Positions 3,360 to 24,967 of a DNA stretch of 37,454 nucleotides are shown here, one piece after another. The position numbers and the translations under genes were made by a program. Origin of the DNA: a virus. The stretch's first letter is position 1; every line of letters begins with the position of its first letter. The notes under the pieces are model-generated. The model saw only the letters and a program-made list of their open reading frames with translations, did not search any database and had not been told where the DNA came from. The stretch is from IMG/VR virus record IMGVR_UViG_3300030339_002072, positions 1 through 37,454 of that record, one strand, 5' to 3'.

Positions 3360-5852
3360 TTACAGTTCCGAGGATAACAGCACGCTTGTGTGCGGTTCAG
3401 CAGTGGATACCACGCTGTACCCACTCGGGAGCGCAGCAGTAAATCTCAAACGGCATAGATTTCCGATTAGCGATATCACACTTGTTACTGCTACACTCTG
3501 GTATACAGACCCATTGGAACACACAAATGCAGCATTTGCCCCCGCTTCGGCTATACTTGGGGTGATTCTCATAGCACATGGTAGGGGTAGATTAATAGCA
3601 AAATACCCTGCCGTGTCATGGTACCCACTCGACGCCCCTAATGATGTTCTAACCAAGTGTCGCTGACATACTGCCAGTGCAAGTGCTGAACTCATCGGAG
3701 CATCCATTGCAATTGTGCTGACAGTTCCAATTTCCAGCTTTACGGTTCTGACTATACATGCCGAACTCGCAAATACTGTCAGATAGGGCGCATAATATTG
3801 TGTGGTTTCGTTTATGACAATGCCGCCCGATACATAGGAAAGACCGAACGTAACATTTCCAAAGCCTGTGACGGGAACCACTGTTGATACAGCAACCCCT
3901 GAAACACTGGCAGGAAACGCTCCCGTCGCAGTGTAGATTGTGCCATCGCTCATAAGCGCGGAGAATGTCACGACCCTACCAAGTAAAGCGGTGTAAAGAT
4001 ACTCCATAAACTGGTATACAATACCACCAGCCGCCATGGATAGACCTGTTCCGGCCACCCACGTAACACTGCTACCACCGAGCACCCACCCATCCAAGTA
4101 GTAACTTCCGGCTGTTGAAAATGCAGTTCCACTCACGCGGTTACGCTGATTGATCGGCGTGCGGAAATCCCAGTTGCGCAACATATTTGGGTTGCTGACC
4201 TGCGTAACACTGGCAGCGCTGATATTGCTCAGCGCTTGCACCTTTTCCGCATCCGTCAAAGTTTGCGCGGTGTACTTGACAGGATATAGGCCGTCGATCA
4301 ATGCCTTTAGCGCCTTCCCTTGCCTGGCATCTAGCACAAAGCCTTCAACAGCCTTATCCAAACTGTTGTAGACGTTCGCCGATTTCAGGCAAGCATCGAT
4401 CGCCGCTTTAATGGTGGTGGTATCATCGCTGGCTATGGTCAGCGTGGTGGCAAATAGGATCGCCTTGACCGCTGCCACAATATCCACAGGGGAAGGGTTA
4501 GGCAGCGCTTTGTCATTCTCAAAGCTTACCACACCGGTTTCGCTTACCGCAGGCGTAAAGGTGGCGCCGCTTGCTCCGGGAGCGCCGGGCAGGCCGTCGG
4601 TTCCATCCAGAACATCAACCTCGGTTGTGCCTGTTTTGTCAGTAATGGTAATAGTTGCCGTGTTCCCAACCTTGCTAACATAGGCAACAGGGCTGTATCC
4701 CGTGGTTTGCCCTTCATCTTCCCATTGTGTACCCGTCCAACGATGTACATTGTAAGGTGCAGCGCTGCCAACGTTGTACCGATCGCCAATTGTCGGGTTT
4801 GGGATGCCCGCCTGCAGTTCCGCAAGCGTTGCGTAGGCATTTCCCTTGATAATGTAATCCGCGCCTTGCGGTCCCTGCTCTGTTTGGATGGTGATGTGTT
4901 TATGCCCGTTGACATCGGTAATTGTGGCCGTCGGTGCGGTGCCATTGGGGACGCTCGACGTGGCGATGGTCATGCCGTCGATCATGGTCGCCGCGGCGTC
5001 CGCTGCCTGTGCTGCCGTGCCGGCGCTACCTGCGGCGGATGTTGCCTGCCCTACCGCAGCAGTTGCCGCCGCTGCGGCCGTATTGGCCGCCGTAGCGGCC
5101 GTATTCGCTCCGGAGGCGGCAGTATTCGCCGCACCAGCTGCCGCATTGGCTGCATCTGCGGCATCGTCAGCATCCCCGGCGGCAAGCACGGCGTCGCTGG
5201 CTGCATCACTGGCCTCCTGTTTCGCCTCGTTTGCGGCAGTGGCGGCACTGTTGGCAGCGGCAGCGGCGGTAGTCGCCGCTCCGGATGCGGCTGTGGCAGA
5301 AGCGGCTGCGTCAGTCGCCGCATTAGTGGCAGTCTCGGCCGCAGATGTGGCGGCTGTTGCCTGGCCAGCCGCTGCCGTTGCCGTTGCAGCTGCTCCATTG
5401 GCAGCGGTTATTCCGGCTTCCATTACTGCAACCTGGGCTAGTAACTGACTGATATCTGGGATGATATGCTCCACATCCACAATGCCGCCGCTGGGTTCAC
5501 GCCCCACAGTTGTGATCAGCACACCCAGGGTAACGGTATTATTTCCGCTGGTATCGGTCAGACGCATCACGCATTGAAGCGAGCCAGGGATTGTGTAGCA
5601 GGTACTTTCCAGCTTCACGACCGCCGTATGCCCATCAATCGTGCCCGCGATGGGCACATAATTGCCATCGGCACGCTGAAAAAACCCGCGCACCGTGCCT
5701 GCCAAAGTAGCTGGCTGACCATCCTGTAAAACAGTAATGCGCCACTCATGCGCCAACTTGTCGCCCTGCATCATCAGCGCCGAAGGAAGGATGCGCGGCT
5801 CAACGGCTCCCTGCGCAAGGTCGATCCGCTGCCGGATTATCCAGTTGTTCAT
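3360..5852 (-). CDS. BppU-like baseplate/tail fibre, receptor-binding
   Basis: 830 residues. The N-terminal ~130 residues (GDKLAHEWRITVLQDGQPATLAGTV, LGVLITTVGREP) match the BppU N-terminal domain that docks upper baseplate proteins. Residues about 150-290 are an extreme Ala/Thr/Asp-rich heptad region, expected to be a trimeric coiled-coil shaft. A short collagen-like stretch follows (GTDGLPGAPGASGA). The C-terminal part begins with MLRNWDFRTPINQRN and later has a CQRHLVR motif, a layout I associate with host-recognition ends of Clostridia phage fibres. The first codon overlaps the stop of the preceding gene (TGATG) and AAAGGAGG lies upstream. The role is host recognition; the receptor is unknown. 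Confidence 0.82.
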   Translation of the reverse strand: MNNWIIRQRIDLAQGAVEPRILPSALMMQGDKLAHEWRITVLQDGQPATLAGTVRGFFQRADGNYVPIAGTIDGHTAVVKLESTCYTIPGSLQCVMRLTDTSGNNTVTLGVLITTVGREPSGGIVDVEHIIPDISQLLAQVAVMEAGITAANGAAATATAAAGQATAATSAAETATNAATDAAASATAASGAATTAAAAANSAATAANEAKQEASDAASDAVLAAGDADDAADAANAAAGAANTAASGANTAATAANTAAAAATAAVGQATSAAGSAGTAAQAADAAATMIDGMTIATSSVPNGTAPTATITDVNGHKHITIQTEQGPQGADYIIKGNAYATLAELQAGIPNPTIGDRYNVGSAAPYNVHRWTGTQWEDEGQTTGYSPVAYVSKVGNTATITITDKTGTTEVDVLDGTDGLPGAPGASGATFTPAVSETGVVSFENDKALPNPSPVDIVAAVKAILFATTLTIASDDTTTIKAAIDACLKSANVYNSLDKAVEGFVLDARQGKALKALIDGLYPVKYTAQTLTDAEKVQALSNISAASVTQVSNPNMLRNWDFRTPINQRNRVSGTAFSTAGSYYLDGWVLGGSSVTWVAGTGLSMAAGGIVYQFMEYLYTALLGRVVTFSALMSDGTIYTATGAFPASVSGVAVSTVVPVTGFGNVTFGLSYVSGGIVINETTQYYAPYLTVFASSACIVRTVKLEIGTVSTIAMDAPMSSALALAVCQRHLVRTSLGASSGYHDTAGYFAINLPLPCAMRITPSIAEAGANAAFVCSNGSVYQSVAVTSVISLIGNLCRLRFTAALPSGYSVVSTAEPHTSVLLSSEL

Positions 5853-9191: not shown

Positions 9192-9220
9192 ATAAAAACC
9201 GCCCCCGGTAAAGGGCGGTT
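9192..9220 (-). terminator. Strong rho-independent terminator closing the moron cassette
   Basis: Perfect 8-bp inverted repeat AACCGCCC / GGGCGGTT (9197-9204 and 9213-9220), 8-base loop, followed on the minus strand by TTTTTATA. It ends the transcript running through the regulator and the small helical gene. It also lies in the path of the late transcript into the distal tail gene. Confidence 0.8.
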
Positions 9221-9240
9221 ATGGGCTTACCATACGTTGG

Positions 9241-9498
9241 TCAACTGGCTTCAATAACGCTGCAGGTAACGCACTGTGCAACATCGTCCAGTTTGGCGCG
9301 AATGTCGTTCAGGTAATCATCCAGCAGCCACAGAAAATCGGTAACCTGTTGGGTATCGATACCGATTTGGGTTCCATCGTAGGCGCTTCGCATCATGCCA
9401 ATGGTGCTTTGCATCTTGCGAACCATCGTATCTGCGGTTTCCATCTCATCCAGAAAACCCCGGTTCTTTGGGTTGGTGAACTGGCTCAGCTTTCCCAT
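9241..9498 (-). CDS. Small helical protein of the moron cassette, unknown function
   Basis: 85 residues from ATG at 9498; AAAGGAG is 5 bases upstream, so the extension to 9549 is unlikely. The sequence is mostly predicted helix (EMETADTMVRKMQSTIGMM, TDFLWLLDDYLNDIRAKL) with two Cys near the C-terminus. It is cotranscribed with the ribbon-helix-helix regulator on the minus strand and followed by a strong terminator, so it may belong to the accessory cassette and not to the tail. A partner or toxin role for the regulator is possible but not shown by any motif. A tail accessory role cannot be excluded. Confidence 0.6.
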   Translation of the reverse strand: MGKLSQFTNPKNRGFLDEMETADTMVRKMQSTIGMMRSAYDGTQIGIDTQQVTDFLWLLDDYLNDIRAKLDDVAQCVTCSVIEAS

Positions 9499-9572
9499 GG
9501 TTTCTCCTTTCAGTTGACCCGAAAGAAGCGCATGTGGTATAATATTCATGCTTCCCTTCGGGGTTGTACGAG

Positions 9573-9612
9573 ATAGGATGTTGCGAACTGTGGTAGGGGA
9601 GCAGCATCCTAT
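9573..9612 (-). other. Inverted repeat downstream of the ribbon-helix-helix gene
   Basis: ATAGGATG / CATCCTAT (9573-9580 and 9605-9612), extended by two more pairs after one mismatch. It begins at the regulator's stop codon. No T-tract follows, so it may be a transcript-stability hairpin or a weak terminator. Confidence 0.4.
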
Positions 9613-9782
9613 TTTTCTTTGGCCAAAAGCAAATGAATCCCTTGACGTATCGCTTCGGTCTTGGTTATGCCATACATCAGACAGTATGCCGTTAACTTGG
9701 CATCCGTTTCCTTATCAATTCGAACCTTGATGTCTACATTTTTGGGATTCTCGATCTTTGGCCTTCCCATAGGTGGGGGCAT
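9609..9782 (-). CDS. Ribbon-helix-helix (CopG/Arc-type) transcriptional regulator
   Basis: 57 residues from ATG at 9782, with AGAAAGGAGG upstream. The sequence GRPKIENPKNVDIKVRI followed by DKETDAKLTAYCLMYGITK and TEAIRQGIHLLL is the classic beta-strand/helix/helix layout of CopG-family dimers; alternating residues in the strand would contact DNA. Its promoter and ribosome binding site are overlapped by a nearly perfect 38-bp palindrome, so self-repression is likely. The same protein may control the divergent secreted-protein gene. Small RHH proteins are also antitoxins, but no clear toxin is adjacent. Confidence 0.82.
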   Translation of the reverse strand: MPPPMGRPKIENPKNVDIKVRIDKETDAKLTAYCLMYGITKTEAIRQGIHLLLAKEK

Positions 9783-9794
9783 TCCATTCGCCTC

Positions 9795-9832
9795 CTTTCT
9801 GTGTTCCATTATATATAACGGAACACAGAAAG
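9795..9832. promoter_or_regulatory. 38-bp near-perfect palindrome, likely operator of the RHH regulator
   Basis: Arms CTTTCTGTGTTCC (9795-9807) and GGAACACAGAAAG (9820-9832) are exact reverse complements. The core TTATATATAA (9809-9818) is itself palindromic, leaving only one unpaired a/c pair. The element covers the -10 box, the spacer and the Shine-Dalgarno of the minus-strand regulator gene. It also lies upstream of the rightward promoter at 9864. Confidence 0.75.
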
Positions 9833-9836
9833 TCAA
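9808..9836 (-). promoter_or_regulatory. Consensus-like sigma-A promoter for the RHH gene
   Basis: On the minus strand TTGACT (9831-9836) is followed by a 17-bp spacer and TATAAT (9808-9813). This is close to consensus and unlike the rest of the late operon, which has no such internal promoter that I could see. It allows the cassette to be transcribed in the lysogen. Confidence 0.75.
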
Positions 9837-9863
9837 GCATAATTTCCAATTTCTATTCTTTGT

Positions 9864-9872
9864 GCTATAATG
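9864..9872 (+). promoter_or_regulatory. Extended -10 promoter for the secreted moron protein
   Basis: TGCTATAAT at 9864-9872 is an exact extended -10 element (TGnTATAAT). No good -35 box is visible, as often with extended -10 promoters. The start codon follows 24 bases downstream of the element. Confidence 0.6.
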
Positions 9873-9895
9873 AGCAAAAACAAGGGGGCACTATC

Positions 9896-10645
9896 GTGAA
9901 AAAAATCATCGCTGCTCTGCTTTTGCTCTTCCTTTTGTTTGCCGATGTGTGTAATGCGGAAGAGTTGATTTTTAAAGAGAATAGTCGCGTTGTCGCAGGC
10001 ACCGATATTGACGCTGGAACATATACTATAAGCGATGTTAAAGATGATGATTATAGCACTTTCGCAATTTTAGATACAGACAAATCAGTGTTGGACTCCT
10101 TTACCCTAGGGTTGTTTGAGGATTCGACAATTGTTACTCTTGAAGAGGGACAAATGATTATGTTGATGATAGGCAGCATATCACTTGCTCCACTCTCGGA
10201 GGAACAATCCAAGGCTGTTATGGCATCTGATCCCTATCTCAATGCGATTGATGGGGTTGACCTCCATCAAGCATTCGCAAAAGCGGAAGATATAGCTGAA
10301 GCATCCGGAGACTATCCCTTGCTCAAAAGCGTGGGCTTCAATTATGACGAGAAACTTAACACCATATCAATCACTATTTGGCTCCTAGATGATGCCACGG
10401 TCGATATTGCAAATACGTATGCTTACGATATGGTTCGCATGGTGAACACTTGTTGCATCTACCAGAACACCAGCATCGCTCCTTCGGCGCCGAAATACCT
10501 CGGGGGCATTTACGATGTGGTGAACTGCACCCTTCTCGCCTGTCGCTGGAACGACATGCCTGACATCACCAAGGCGTTGGTAAACCATATTATACCCGTT
10601 GGCACCCAAGGCTTCGGAACCGTGGATGCCAACGAGCTCAAGTAA
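9896..10645 (+). CDS. Secreted protein of unknown function, candidate lysogenic conversion (moron) gene
   Basis: 249 residues from GTG at 9896, preceded by AAGGGGG; a long upstream extension crosses the palindrome and is rejected. It has a clean signal peptide: KK, a hydrophobic core (IIAALLLLFLLFADV) and a likely signal peptidase I site after CNA. Residues about 24-100 include VVAGTDIDAGTYTISD and ILDTDKSVLDSFTLG with LEEGQMIML, resembling the DIPAGEY-type repeat found in secreted Firmicutes proteins. The second half (about 115-249) is unrecognised and has three cysteines. The gene runs against the surrounding late operon and ends 3 bases from the tape-measure stop. The first two thirds look AT-richer than the neighbours, which suggests transfer. 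Confidence 0.75.
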   Translation: MKKIIAALLLLFLLFADVCNAEELIFKENSRVVAGTDIDAGTYTISDVKDDDYSTFAILDTDKSVLDSFTLGLFEDSTIVTLEEGQMIMLMIGSISLAPLSEEQSKAVMASDPYLNAIDGVDLHQAFAKAEDIAEASGDYPLLKSVGFNYDEKLNTISITIWLLDDATVDIANTYAYDMVRMVNTCCIYQNTSIAPSAPKYLGGIYDVVNCTLLACRWNDMPDITKALVNHIIPVGTQGFGTVDANELK

Positions 10646-21796: not shown

Positions 21797-23515
21797 CTAA
21801 AATCGGAATACCGTTACGCTTGCCGGCACTGTATCCCCCAGGATGGGAGCTTTCTGCATGGCCACCGCATGCGCGTCCAAAAAGGCCATGAATCCATCGA
21901 TCTTGCGGTAGCGGTTGCGTTTCACAGGCATCCAGTTTTCACGGTCGCGGTCACGGTAATCATTGCGTAGCCGAACATTGTGCATGTACCAGCGCAGCAT
22001 CGGGTCGTTGTTGCTAATCAGTCGCCCGTCCAGCAGCATTTCCCGTACATCCTTCATCGGGTCGTTCATGGTCATGGGGCCTTGGCGCTTCACCTCGCAG
22101 CAGAAGCCCGCGCCTTCCAGCATCCGGGTCAACCACACCGCGTTAGCCGGGTCATACCCGATGCTGATAATCTCGTACTTTTTCGCCTGGTCAACAAACC
22201 ACTGGTACACCACATCCTGTGGAATATAGTCGCCGTCGCAAATCGTCAGCAGCCCCTGCAGCGCCCATTCGTAATAAGGAATTTTCTCGTTGTCCATCTC
22301 CACCTTACGCTTGGGCACCCAGCTGTGCTGCAGCACGAACGAATCCCCATTGTCCAGCGGAAACTCCAGCGCGGCAGCGGTGAAGTCCTCACGGCTGCTC
22401 AGGTCAAACCCACCGTAGCAGCTTCGCCCGGTCAGGCTTTCCATGTCCAGCGTTTTGCGGTTGCGGTTCAGCACGCTGATGTCCACAAACCCGGCGTCGC
22501 TCGCATCCGCCATCACGTTCAGCTGCTTGGTAATGAAGTCGCTGCGCTCTTGGGGAATGCTCTTGCACCGCTCCCAGTCATTGCTCAGCGTATCAAGGTC
22601 CAGCAGCAGGCCCATGCCTGGGTTGGCCTTCACCCAGCAGCTGCGGTCCTCAATGTTGTCCGCGCTGTCCAGTTCGCAGATGAAGCAGAAAAGCCGGTCG
22701 GCCACGCTGGCGGGCAGCATTCCCTCCTGCATCGCGTCCGTGAACAGCGCGTAGTAATCCATTAAGGGGCCTTCCAGCACCGTGCCCATAGTGGTGATGT
22801 AGATGGCAAGCGGCTGGCGGCGTTTGTTCATGCCGCGCTTGATCACGTTGATCAGCTTGTAGTCGCGGTATTCGTGGATTTCGTCGAACACCCCCATGTG
22901 CGGGTTCAGGCCATCCAGCTTGTGGCTGTCGCTGGCCCGGTGCTGGATGCGGCTGTTGGTCTTGTCGTAGTAAATGCCATCCCGCAGGGTTCGGAATCGG
23001 CTGGCTAGGAAGGGGCTGGCCTCAATTTGCCCTGTACACTCGGTATATACGATGCTGGCCTGCTCCTTACTGTTGGCCAGCAGGTACACATCCGCGCCGC
23101 GCTCCCCATCCTTGCTTGCCCCGAAGGTAGCGTTCCCCGCCATCAGCGTACTTTTCCCGTTGCCGCGGCCCACCACGATCAGCGCCTCGCGGAAGCGGCG
23201 CAGTCCGGTTTCCTTGCTCACCCAGCCGTAGATGTTCCCCTCGACGAAGCACTCCCAGGGCATCAGCTCCATGCGTTCGTAATTGCCTTTGGTGGGTGCT
23301 AAAAAGCGCTCCATGAACTCAATCGGCCGAAGGGCCAACCGTTCATCGAAGCGCCATGGGTATTCCGGGTCTTTTGATTTTTCCAGATCCAGCAGGAAAC
23401 GCGCGCAGGCCATTTTAACCTTCTCACAGGCAACCTGTTTTCCGGTCGTAACGTCCTGTGCATATCCATAAAGCTTCCCCAGTGGGTCAAGTGTCGGGGA
23501 AATCGTCAAACTCAT
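21797..23515 (-). CDS. Terminase large subunit
   Basis: 572 residues. ATPase domain: Walker A GRGNGKS at 116-122, Walker B GVFDEIHE with Asp211/Glu212, and a coupling motif ITTMGT near 240. Nuclease domain: GGFDLSSREDFTA with Asp371, IGYDPANA with Asp455, and KIDGFMAFLDA with Asp540 and Asp547, consistent with the two-metal RuvC-like fold. It powers DNA packaging and cuts the concatemer. The start overlaps the small subunit by 29 bases; its Shine-Dalgarno (CGGAAG) is weak, which suggests coupled translation. Confidence 0.92.
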   Translation of the reverse strand: MSLTISPTLDPLGKLYGYAQDVTTGKQVACEKVKMACARFLLDLEKSKDPEYPWRFDERLALRPIEFMERFLAPTKGNYERMELMPWECFVEGNIYGWVSKETGLRRFREALIVVGRGNGKSTLMAGNATFGASKDGERGADVYLLANSKEQASIVYTECTGQIEASPFLASRFRTLRDGIYYDKTNSRIQHRASDSHKLDGLNPHMGVFDEIHEYRDYKLINVIKRGMNKRRQPLAIYITTMGTVLEGPLMDYYALFTDAMQEGMLPASVADRLFCFICELDSADNIEDRSCWVKANPGMGLLLDLDTLSNDWERCKSIPQERSDFITKQLNVMADASDAGFVDISVLNRNRKTLDMESLTGRSCYGGFDLSSREDFTAAALEFPLDNGDSFVLQHSWVPKRKVEMDNEKIPYYEWALQGLLTICDGDYIPQDVVYQWFVDQAKKYEIISIGYDPANAVWLTRMLEGAGFCCEVKRQGPMTMNDPMKDVREMLLDGRLISNNDPMLRWYMHNVRLRNDYRDRDRENWMPVKRNRYRKIDGFMAFLDAHAVAMQKAPILGDTVPASVTVFRF

Positions 23516-23891
23516 CTTCCGGCTTGCGAGGCACTTCCGTTTCGCCCGGGCTTTCCGCCTGCCCTTTCAGATGGGCGGGGGTCAGGCGAAGTTCGTGCAA
23601 GTGCTTTCGCTGCTGCTCCCGCAGCATGCGCGCCTGCTGGATGCTTTTATTTTCGCGCATACCGGTTTGCCGCCCATTTTTCCAGGGTACCATCACACCC
23701 CGCTTGGCCACATCCTCATCGAAGCTCCGTTTTTGCTCTTCCATCATGGCAATATCACCAGCGATACTTTGGGCAATGTCGTCCATGCCGCCCGGCCGTT
23801 TTTCGCAAACGGCACAGATGTTTTCGTACAGTGCCCGCGCCTCTGGGTTTTTGATACGCGCCAACTGCTGTTGCTTCATGTCCTCGTTCAT
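23487..23891 (-). CDS. Terminase small subunit (P27-like)
   Basis: 134 residues; ATG at 23891 after AGGAGG. The helical sequence with RALYENICAVCEKRPG, IAMMEEQKRSFDED and LREQQRKHLHELRLTPAHLKG fits the P27 small terminase type, ending in an acidic, Pro-rich tail (PRKPEDEFDDFPDT). It recognises the packaging start site and recruits the large subunit. It lies between the HNH gene and TerL in the usual packaging order. Confidence 0.82.
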   Translation of the reverse strand: MNEDMKQQQLARIKNPEARALYENICAVCEKRPGGMDDIAQSIAGDIAMMEEQKRSFDEDVAKRGVMVPWKNGRQTGMRENKSIQQARMLREQQRKHLHELRLTPAHLKGQAESPGETEVPRKPEDEFDDFPDT

Positions 23892-23902: not shown

Positions 23903-24220
23903 CTATATCTTGATGACCCGGGCGCGGTTCGGCTTCGTGGGCTTGGCCGCCTCCTTGGCCCGCCCCTTTTCGGGGTGCCGCTGATTATGGCACTGTTTAC
24001 ATAGGCTGCGCAAATTTTGGATATCCAGTTCAAGGTCTGGGCGCTCGCTGCGCGGTATCACGTGGTGCACCACCTCGGCGTCCCTCACCTTGCCGCGCCC
24101 CCCGCTGTGAAACCGCTCCATGCAGTCGCAGCATAGGTAATTGTCCATGCGCATCCGCTCGGCAGCGGTGCGCTTCCATACGCCCGTGTGGTAGAAGGGT
24201 TCGCTCTCTTTGTGATACAC
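23903..24220 (-). CDS. HNH endonuclease of the packaging module
   Basis: About 105 residues from a GTG at 24220 (GGGGTG upstream). An ATG at 24289 is also in frame, but it has no ribosome binding site, and the sequence between encodes a near-perfect terminator hairpin, so I prefer the shorter form. The HNH domain is clear: FYHTGVWKRTAAERMRMDNYLC and CDCMERF, then DAEVVHHVIP (the His pair), and DLELDIQNLRSLCKQCHNQRH with the zinc cysteines. In HK97-like phages the terminase-adjacent HNH protein stimulates cos cleavage and is needed for packaging. Confidence 0.8.
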   Translation of the reverse strand: MYHKESEPFYHTGVWKRTAAERMRMDNYLCCDCMERFHSGGRGKVRDAEVVHHVIPRSERPDLELDIQNLRSLCKQCHNQRHPEKGRAKEAAKPTKPNRARVIKI

Positions 24221-24236
24221 AGCTTTCACCCCACGC

Positions 24237-24261
24237 AAAAAGGCGGCCCCTTCGGGTCGCC
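24237..24261 (-). terminator. Strong rho-independent terminator at the start of the late operon
   Basis: On the minus strand GGCGACCC, loop GAAG, GGGCCGCC, then TTTTT: an 8-bp GC-rich stem (one G-U pair) and a T5 tract. It lies directly upstream of the likely HNH start and downstream of the palindromic array. It would block the late operon unless bypassed by antitermination or a promoter placed after it. Confidence 0.75.
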
Positions 24262-24319
24262 CTGCTCGCTTCTTTTGCAGTTTGATCATATCACTGTCAA
24301 GAGTGCATGTCTAGAGCAT

Positions 24320-24449
24320 GTGCTGTCACATGACAGTATAGTGCTGTCATATTACAGTATAGTGCTGTCACATACTGTCATATGCACTGATAGTGCTGTC
24401 ATATGACAGTATAGTGCTGTCATGTGACAGCACATGACAGCATGTGACA
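24320..24449. repeat. Array of CTGTCA-N2-TGACAG palindromes on a 21-bp period
   Basis: CTGTCA half-sites begin at 24323, 24344, 24365, 24375, 24396 and 24417: spacings of 21, 21, 10, 21 and 21 bp. The full dyad is complete at 24323, 24396 and 24417, has one mismatch at 24344 and is degenerate at 24365/24375. A third TGACAG lies at 24435. The unit is TATAGTGCTGTCA then YATGACAG. All spacings are close to whole helical turns, so bound proteins would sit on one face of DNA. The array lies between the early-operon terminator and the late-operon terminator, next to a sigma-region-4-like regulator gene. Possible roles: activator or antitermination site for late genes, packaging site, or replication iterons. 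Confidence 0.85.
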
Positions 24450-24471: not shown

Positions 24472-24497
24472 CAAAGAAAACAGGCATTTCTGCCCGT
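24472..24497 (-). terminator. Terminator at the end of the early operon
   Basis: On the minus strand ACGGGCA, loop GAAA, TGCCTGT, then TTTTCTTTG. The + strand also reads into TTTT, so it may work both ways. It lies 24 bases after the stop of the late regulator gene. Confidence 0.75.
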
Positions 24498-24520
24498 TTT
24501 ACCGTGGAGGTTGGAAAGGT

Positions 24521-24967
24521 TCACCGGTACCAGCTCGGAAGCACCGTCTGCACCGTCGCATCCTCGATCTCGCCGATCATTTTCAACCCATCCGCCTTCA
24601 TGTTCCGAGTATACCCATAGCTGTAATTTTCATGTTTTGCCACCACGTTCAAGGCTTCGCGCATTACATAATACCGGTGCATAACACCACGTACGGTGGG
24701 CGGTAGCGCACTAACTAGCTGGGTACACGCAGTAACTTCCGCCTCCTTTTCTCGCAGGCGCAGCGCCAGTTCCTCCTCCAGTCGGGCAAGTTCCACGGCA
24801 TAGGTAGCGGTTTTGTCCTTTGCCCCGCCTCCGTGCCCGCCGCCAATATCGTCCATTTTGGGTGTCACGTTGGTGGCAATCTCCCGGTACCGGGCGATAT
24901 CCGCCCGTATGGTTTCGATGTCCTCATCCGCCCGCCGGCAACGGGCGAAAACCTCCACGGCGTTCAT
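24521..24967 (-). CDS. Sigma-region-4-like late transcription regulator (RinA/ArpU/DUF1492-like)
   Basis: 148 residues; ATG at 24967 with AGAAGGGGG upstream. The N-terminal two thirds is coiled coil (ETIRADIARYREIATNV, VELARLEEELALRLREKEAEV). The C-terminus (LPPTVRGVMHRYYVMREAL, then NVVAKHENYSYGYTRNMKADGLKMI) has the pattern of a sigma-70 region 4 helix-turn-helix seen in phage late activators of the RinA/ArpU type. Its position as last gene of the early operon, just before the terminator, the palindromic array and the packaging genes, is where such activators lie. It is the best candidate for a protein that acts at the array. Confidence 0.72.
   Translation of the reverse strand: MNAVEVFARCRRADEDIETIRADIARYREIATNVTPKMDDIGGGHGGGAKDKTATYAVELARLEEELALRLREKEAEVTACTQLVSALPPTVRGVMHRYYVMREALNVVAKHENYSYGYTRNMKADGLKMIGEIEDATVQTVLPSWYR

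Follow-up and report, generated by a model that had tools for sequence, protein, structure and literature searches.

What does an array of short repeats do at the head of a phage late operon, between the gene for a small regulator and the terminase genes? The usual account of how Gram-positive phages control their late genes is simple activation by small regulators, with a mechanism that is unclear. In the window analyzed here, which is the whole virus record of 37,454 nucleotides, CTGTCA half-sites occur at 24323, 24344, 24365, 24375, 24396, and 24417, with spacings of 21, 21, 10, 21, and 21 bp, exactly as a preliminary description of this DNA had listed them and far above chance. Four of the six units are dyads, in line with its statement that most are: CTGTCA-N2-TGACAG is perfect at 24323, 24396, and 24417 and carries one mismatch at 24344, while 24365 and 24375 are lone, unpaired half-sites. 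The idea that each spacing is a whole number of helical turns holds for the 21-bp steps; the 10-bp step, at 0.95 turn, falls slightly short of one. The three perfect dyads and the mismatched one have no counterpart elsewhere in the record, and additional sites are present at 24435 (TGACAG), 24445 (TGACA, both in the plus-strand reading), and 24294 (CTGTCA).

The hexamers CTGTCA and TGACAG were counted 11 times in 160 bp; when the whole window was shuffled 200 times with its dinucleotides kept, no shuffle gave more than 3. Between 24290 and 24460, 97 in-phase repeated 5-mers were obtained (mean of 2,000 shuffles 5.0, maximum 22), and the second-best location in the record scored 27. The DNA of the array is AT-richer (42% GC vs. 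58%). No Rfam match was obtained in the window or in nine relatives. Elsewhere in the window, a repeat with a 21-bp period (GCCGCAGCAGCGGCCGTATTC, 4.7 copies) is located at 5065–5162 inside an 830-aa open reading frame (3360–5852) and is probably a coding repeat.

Read along the minus strand, the array is followed closely by a predicted sigma70-type promoter, TAGACA-N17-TGATATGAT (24313–24285), which reads into HNH-terS-TerL. This promoter matches 10 of 12 consensus positions, with a 17-bp spacer and a TG before the −10, and an independent promoter scan also returned TAGACA-N17-TATGAT with the preceding TG at the same positions. A TTGACA at 24300–24295 was dropped as a −35, as TAGACA at 24313 gives the 17-bp spacing. 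Transcription is predicted to start at about 24278; the hairpin of the leader terminator begins approximately 16 nt further on, and the whole terminator falls within about 40 nt. The terminator proposed earlier at 24237–24261 is real on the minus strand, with one A/C mismatch that interrupts its stem and for which it is missing from the list of a simple consensus scan. As the regulator gene has its own terminator, the early transcript can end without the leader hairpin. The start of the HNH gene was revised to a GTG because the ATG at 24289 falls inside the −10. On the minus strand the order is regulator, array, HNH, terS, TerL, portal, ClpP-like protease, capsid, and tail genes (Table 1).

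Table 1. Coordinates of the regulator gene, the array, the predicted late promoter with its leader, and the first late genes in the window.
Feature	Coordinates	Strand	Basis
Late regulator, 148 aa; helical hairpin 3–33/48–85, sigma-region-4-like HTH 90–142; phrog_36	24521–24967	−	
Second terminator, directly after the regulator gene and upstream of the array	24477–24500	−	
Upstream edge of array: TGACAG 24435–24440 and TGACA 24445–24449 (plus-strand reading), 10 bp apart	24431–24449	−	
Core of phased array: four dyads and two lone half-sites	24323–24430	.	Half-site and dyad positions, shuffles
−35 hexamer TAGACA of predicted late promoter	24308–24313	−	Consensus match
TGACAG half-site in −35/−10 spacer (CTGTCA on plus strand)	24294–24299	−	Sequence
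−10 hexamer TATGAT of extended −10 TGATATGAT	24285–24290	−	Aligned with 26 relatives
Leader intrinsic terminator: hairpin 24262–24241, U-run to 24237	24237–24262	−	
HNH endonuclease, first late gene, GTG start at 24229	23903–24229	−	Start codon inferred
Terminase small subunit (terS)	23487–23891	−	
Terminase large subunit (TerL)	21797–23515	−	

Further along the late operon, a moron-like island at 9197–10645 separates the tape measure gene from the Dit gene. It contains a plus-strand open reading frame for an exported protein and small minus-strand frames, with promoter-like sites of its own, and the two frames scanned had no Pfam, PHROG, or PADLOC match. A strong minus-strand terminator at 9220–9197 has to be passed by late transcripts on the way to the tail and lysis genes.

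The preliminary description had placed a RinA/ArpU-type activator gene next to the late operon. A regulator gene is indeed present, matching the PHROG family "transcriptional regulator" (phrog_36, 2e-12, 48.1 bits); membership in ArpU is not borne out, as the NCBIfam model TIGR01637 gave 13.5 bits against a cut-off of 43.1. The regulator of a relative (L085) likewise stayed below the cut-off of the RinA model TIGR01636 (13.8 bits vs. 31.9). The AlphaFold model of the window's regulator (pLDDT 90) starts with a helical hairpin and continues into a domain like sigma region 4, and this domain matched region 4 of SigF (1.2 Å over 49 columns) and of SigR (Z 6.7, 2.2 Å, 64/65). Regulators of relatives match Pfam Sigma70_r4, that of L154 at 2e-6, and some reach 13.8–15.4 bits with PF06530 (21Q), under its cut-off of 26; the window's regulator had no PF06530 match. 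21Q was not among the reported fold-search matches of the model, an absence that does not exclude 21Q likeness. A tblastn search of cultured phages with the regulator gave no match, and the regulator alignment A2 was too diverse for scanning.

Relatives were collected by TerL (55–83% identical) from viral contigs and genomes, many of them metagenome fragments. The order SSB, regulator, intergenic region with array, HNH, terS, TerL is shared by the window and about 25 relatives. Most have a common promoter core, TTGAnn-N17-TGtGnTAtnnT, each with its own upstream repeat: the words include TGTCA/TGACGTCA, AGGAGCG, ACCTGCG, ACACGT/GTTCCC, GGTACC, CATACC, and TGATnTTACA, among others. In most relatives the repeats are direct and non-palindromic (e.g., AGGAGCG, ACCTGCG, TTACA), and the earlier picture of palindromes bound by a dimer is therefore too narrow, while that of an array of phased sites is upheld. 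When viral contigs were searched for TGTCA-N2-TGACA dyads occurring in pairs, 65 stretches were recovered, mostly unrelated arrays with spacings of 29, 15, or 16 bp; a 21-bp array was found only in the window's own phage. Among the unrelated viral contigs, L016, L025, L039, L042, L064, L066, and L067 carry long tandem arrays of this dyad with a period of 15–16 bp.

Across 27 late promoters (the window and 26 relatives, promoters picked by eye) the sequence of the repeat varied between phages, whereas its spacing stayed at about 10.5 bp or a multiple of it. Lags between repeated 5-mers were enriched at 10 and 11 bp (z = 48 and 25) and at 20, 21, and 22 bp (z = 18, 64, and 21), and further at 30–33, 41, 42, 44, 52, 53, 55, 62, and 63 bp, with z values of 47 at 42 and 29 at 63. 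Intermediate lags were close to background save for a weak excess at 24 bp (z = 3.6), and unit lengths of 10/11 were as frequent as 21. Phasing was individually significant (p < 0.05) at 23 of these loci and not significant at L154, L112, L099, and L089. The possibility raised beforehand, that phages with the same regulator might lack the array, applies in part to L154: its regulator is the closest found (53% identical), yet its TGACA sites are scattered and form no significant array.

In view of this choice by eye, 39 loci of 5–12 kb were scanned blind to the promoter, and in most of them the best phased window fell in the stretch that separates the regulator from the late genes. As a hold-out, seven prophages were taken by regulator profile from about 400 genomes of the order, both searches covering nearly the same genomes. 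All four hold-out prophages with HNH-terS-TerL had their best phased window between regulator and late genes, and these four carry new words, such as ATGATACA every 11 bp. Three distant regulator relatives from other phage types (L202–L204) showed no clear array. The register between upstream array and −10 showed no significant conservation from locus to locus (p = 0.60).

The repeats also enter the promoter itself. Among 31 loci, repeat coverage was 5 over the −35 and went back up to 16 just downstream, between −35 and −10, where the same number of loci have an in-phase copy of the motif. In this spacer, 91 5-mers matched the array in phase, compared to 6.5 in shuffles (maximum 26). The spacer TGACAG of the window may act as a Q-like binding element, although the 29–30 bp to the next TGACAG are not a whole number of turns. 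With a cut-off of −10 kcal/mol or stronger and a search length of 220 nt, 27 of 31 leaders had a terminator, compared to 46 of 290 control windows (16%). The suggestion that the array serves to overcome the leader terminator is plausible, as a promoter-proximal terminator is almost always present. A weakly conserved tAagCT directly follows the −10, some 6 bp ahead of where a lambda-like pause would lie, and no −10-like pause element was found at the position known for Q promoters.

In Mantel tests, which are approximate for related sequences, the similarity of array words correlated with that of the regulators (r = 0.68), also with TerS removed (partial r = 0.62, p = 0.00025), and the HTH part of the regulator gave r = 0.58 given TerS and 0.52 given HNH (p = 0.00025); with the regulator removed, the array did not follow TerS (partial r = −0.16, p = 0.996), and HNH was not clearly tracked (r = 0.09, p = 0.054). 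In a first set, HTH and N-terminus correlated with the motif about equally, and L095 has nearly the recognition helix of L082 with a mostly different repeat. The covariation, which is correlational, favors the regulator over the terminase as the binding protein.

This bears on two roles for the array outside transcription. Repeat arrays are typical of terminase sites, the array adjoins HNH, terS, and TerL, and the 11-bp gap between HNH and terS is too short to hold a cos site, all of which would suit a recognition site of the terminase (cosB-like or pac) beside HNH-terS. However, the array sequence does not track TerS once the regulator is accounted for, nor clearly HNH, and in some relatives it is at least 1 kb from the regulator gene yet still at the late promoter. 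The packaging mark put forward in the preliminary description is therefore very unlikely. Plasmid iterons are often about 20–22 bp apart, and together with the AT-richness this spacing could suggest a replication origin whose 21-bp phased repeats are bound by an initiator. The tie of the array to late promoter and leader, its covariation with the late regulator, and the equal frequency of 10/11-bp units speak against such an origin, which we regard as extremely improbable.

Published systems offer closer parallels. As in Ltr/RinA/ArpU phages (phi13 Ltr, phi11 RinA, TP901-1 Alt), a small regulator gene is placed directly upstream of the late promoter, and as with phi13 Ltr and TP901-1 Alt, repeats lie upstream of its −10. 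In phi13, deletion of the repeats at −107 to −42 abolishes the activity of P23; in TP901-1, Alt has its binding sites in four direct repeats at −76 to −32 (PMC13123087). The impression that no such array had been described hence applies to this unit and not to the kind, which is already known from the published Ltr/Alt arrays. The arrays of the window's group differ from Ltr/RinA/ArpU in being longer, in their strict 10.5-bp phasing, and in the copy inside the promoter spacer; the window phage further differs in its dyad units and in a regulator under the ArpU/RinA cut-offs. Conserved phasing with motif turnover alongside the regulator, the spacer copy, the near-universal leader terminator, the resulting Q-like layout, and the dyad version appear to be new.

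The records of the cultured phages phi11, phi13, TP901-1, and phi6228 show promoter, terminator, and late genes in the same succession as the window, the terminator coming after a −10-like sequence, with promoters read by eye and published activity data only for phi13 P23. In phi13 (L184), the Ltr repeats at about 3957–4028 read as 18-bp units (CAGTTCGGACACATCGTA) without helical phasing, and an intrinsic terminator at about 4092–4116 lies about 28 nt past the likely P23 start, where the published +50 reporter would cut it. The RinA–terS gap of phi11 (L185, 4341–4526) contains a TGGCAGT repeat with 11-bp spacing, a core TTATGATAGTGTAGG partly common to phi6228, and a terminator before terS.

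A sigma-region-4-like HTH, a site between −35 and −10, and a promoter-proximal terminator form a combination close to that of the antiterminators 21Q, AlpA, and GafZ. 21Q has an HTH of the sigma-region-4 kind and direct-repeat sites (QBE) between −35 and −10 (PMC6606751), and the AlpA sites (ABE) lie there as well (PMC9371919). The sites of both are 6 bp long, and in both systems an intrinsic terminator is located downstream of the start. In the Caulobacter gene transfer agent, GafZ/GafY place a sigma-like HTH protein between −10 and −35 and combine activation and antitermination of a phage-like late cluster (PMC11150451). Unlike 21Q and AlpA, the arrays of the window's group reach far upstream, and antitermination is here a prediction; unlike the window phage, GafZ/GafY is proteobacterial and comprises two proteins plus IHF with a single ZBE.

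From these computed features (array, phasing, promoter and terminator positions, covariation, and regulator fold) we infer binding, cooperativity, positive regulation, and antitermination in the following form. The array is probably a cooperative DNA-binding platform for late control, used by the phage's own regulator (24521–24967 product), since its words change together with the nearby regulator gene as expected of a docking strip. That the regulator binds the phased array at the late promoter, as proposed beforehand, is probable, given the phasing kept with unrelated words and the covariation. Several protomers, each with its sigma-region-4-like HTH, would occupy half-sites that share a face of the helix, upstream of the promoter, and recruit or engage RNA polymerase, which would then transcribe HNH-terS-TerL and the remaining late operon. 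The regulator might also load onto the polymerase and carry it past the leader terminator, in the manner of Q, AlpA, or GafZ. With a terminator within about 40 nt and an in-phase spacer copy in many relatives, we give this last step a chance close to even.

Two readings keep the regulator at the promoter without this step. As a pure activator of initiation, which is a narrower version of the platform, the array-bound regulator would help a weak promoter to recruit RNA polymerase, with the hairpin serving only as an insulator or a leaky attenuator. The Ltr/Alt regulators are described as activators, and a phi13 P23 reporter with just 50 bp after the start is still Ltr-dependent (PMC13123087), favoring activation of initiation in phi13. 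Poor −35 hexamers in several relatives and arrays that extend at least 100 bp upstream, as for activators, point the same way. Against it, many promoters are near-consensus (TTGAnn-N17-TGTGnTAtnnT), and a terminator follows the start in nearly all leaders though the window's regulator gene has its own; the odds of pure activation are, again, a little under even. Near-consensus promoters with sites overlapping −35/−10 are also a common repressor layout, in which the regulator would silence a strong late promoter by covering the spacer and upstream DNA. Such a repressor leaves the leader terminator unexplained, and late expression requires those regulators that have been studied in the same gene position (PMC13123087), so that repression is quite improbable.

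We tentatively propose, as a possibility short of an even bet, that late genes in these Clostridia phages, and perhaps in Ltr/RinA/Alt phages generally, are under Q-like antitermination through a phased array, with one protomer docked between −35 and −10 and the loaded polymerase passing the leader terminator. Array words and regulator would diversify fast and in step, so that every phage has a private address for its late genes. What stays constant across the phages is the geometry (10.5-bp phase, spacer copy, and leader terminator), while DNA word and regulator change together. Dozens of regulator–site pairs would thereby amount to a natural specificity code, and a simple reporter is enough to tell activation from antitermination directly. 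Cross-talk among co-resident prophages could also be limited by such private words.
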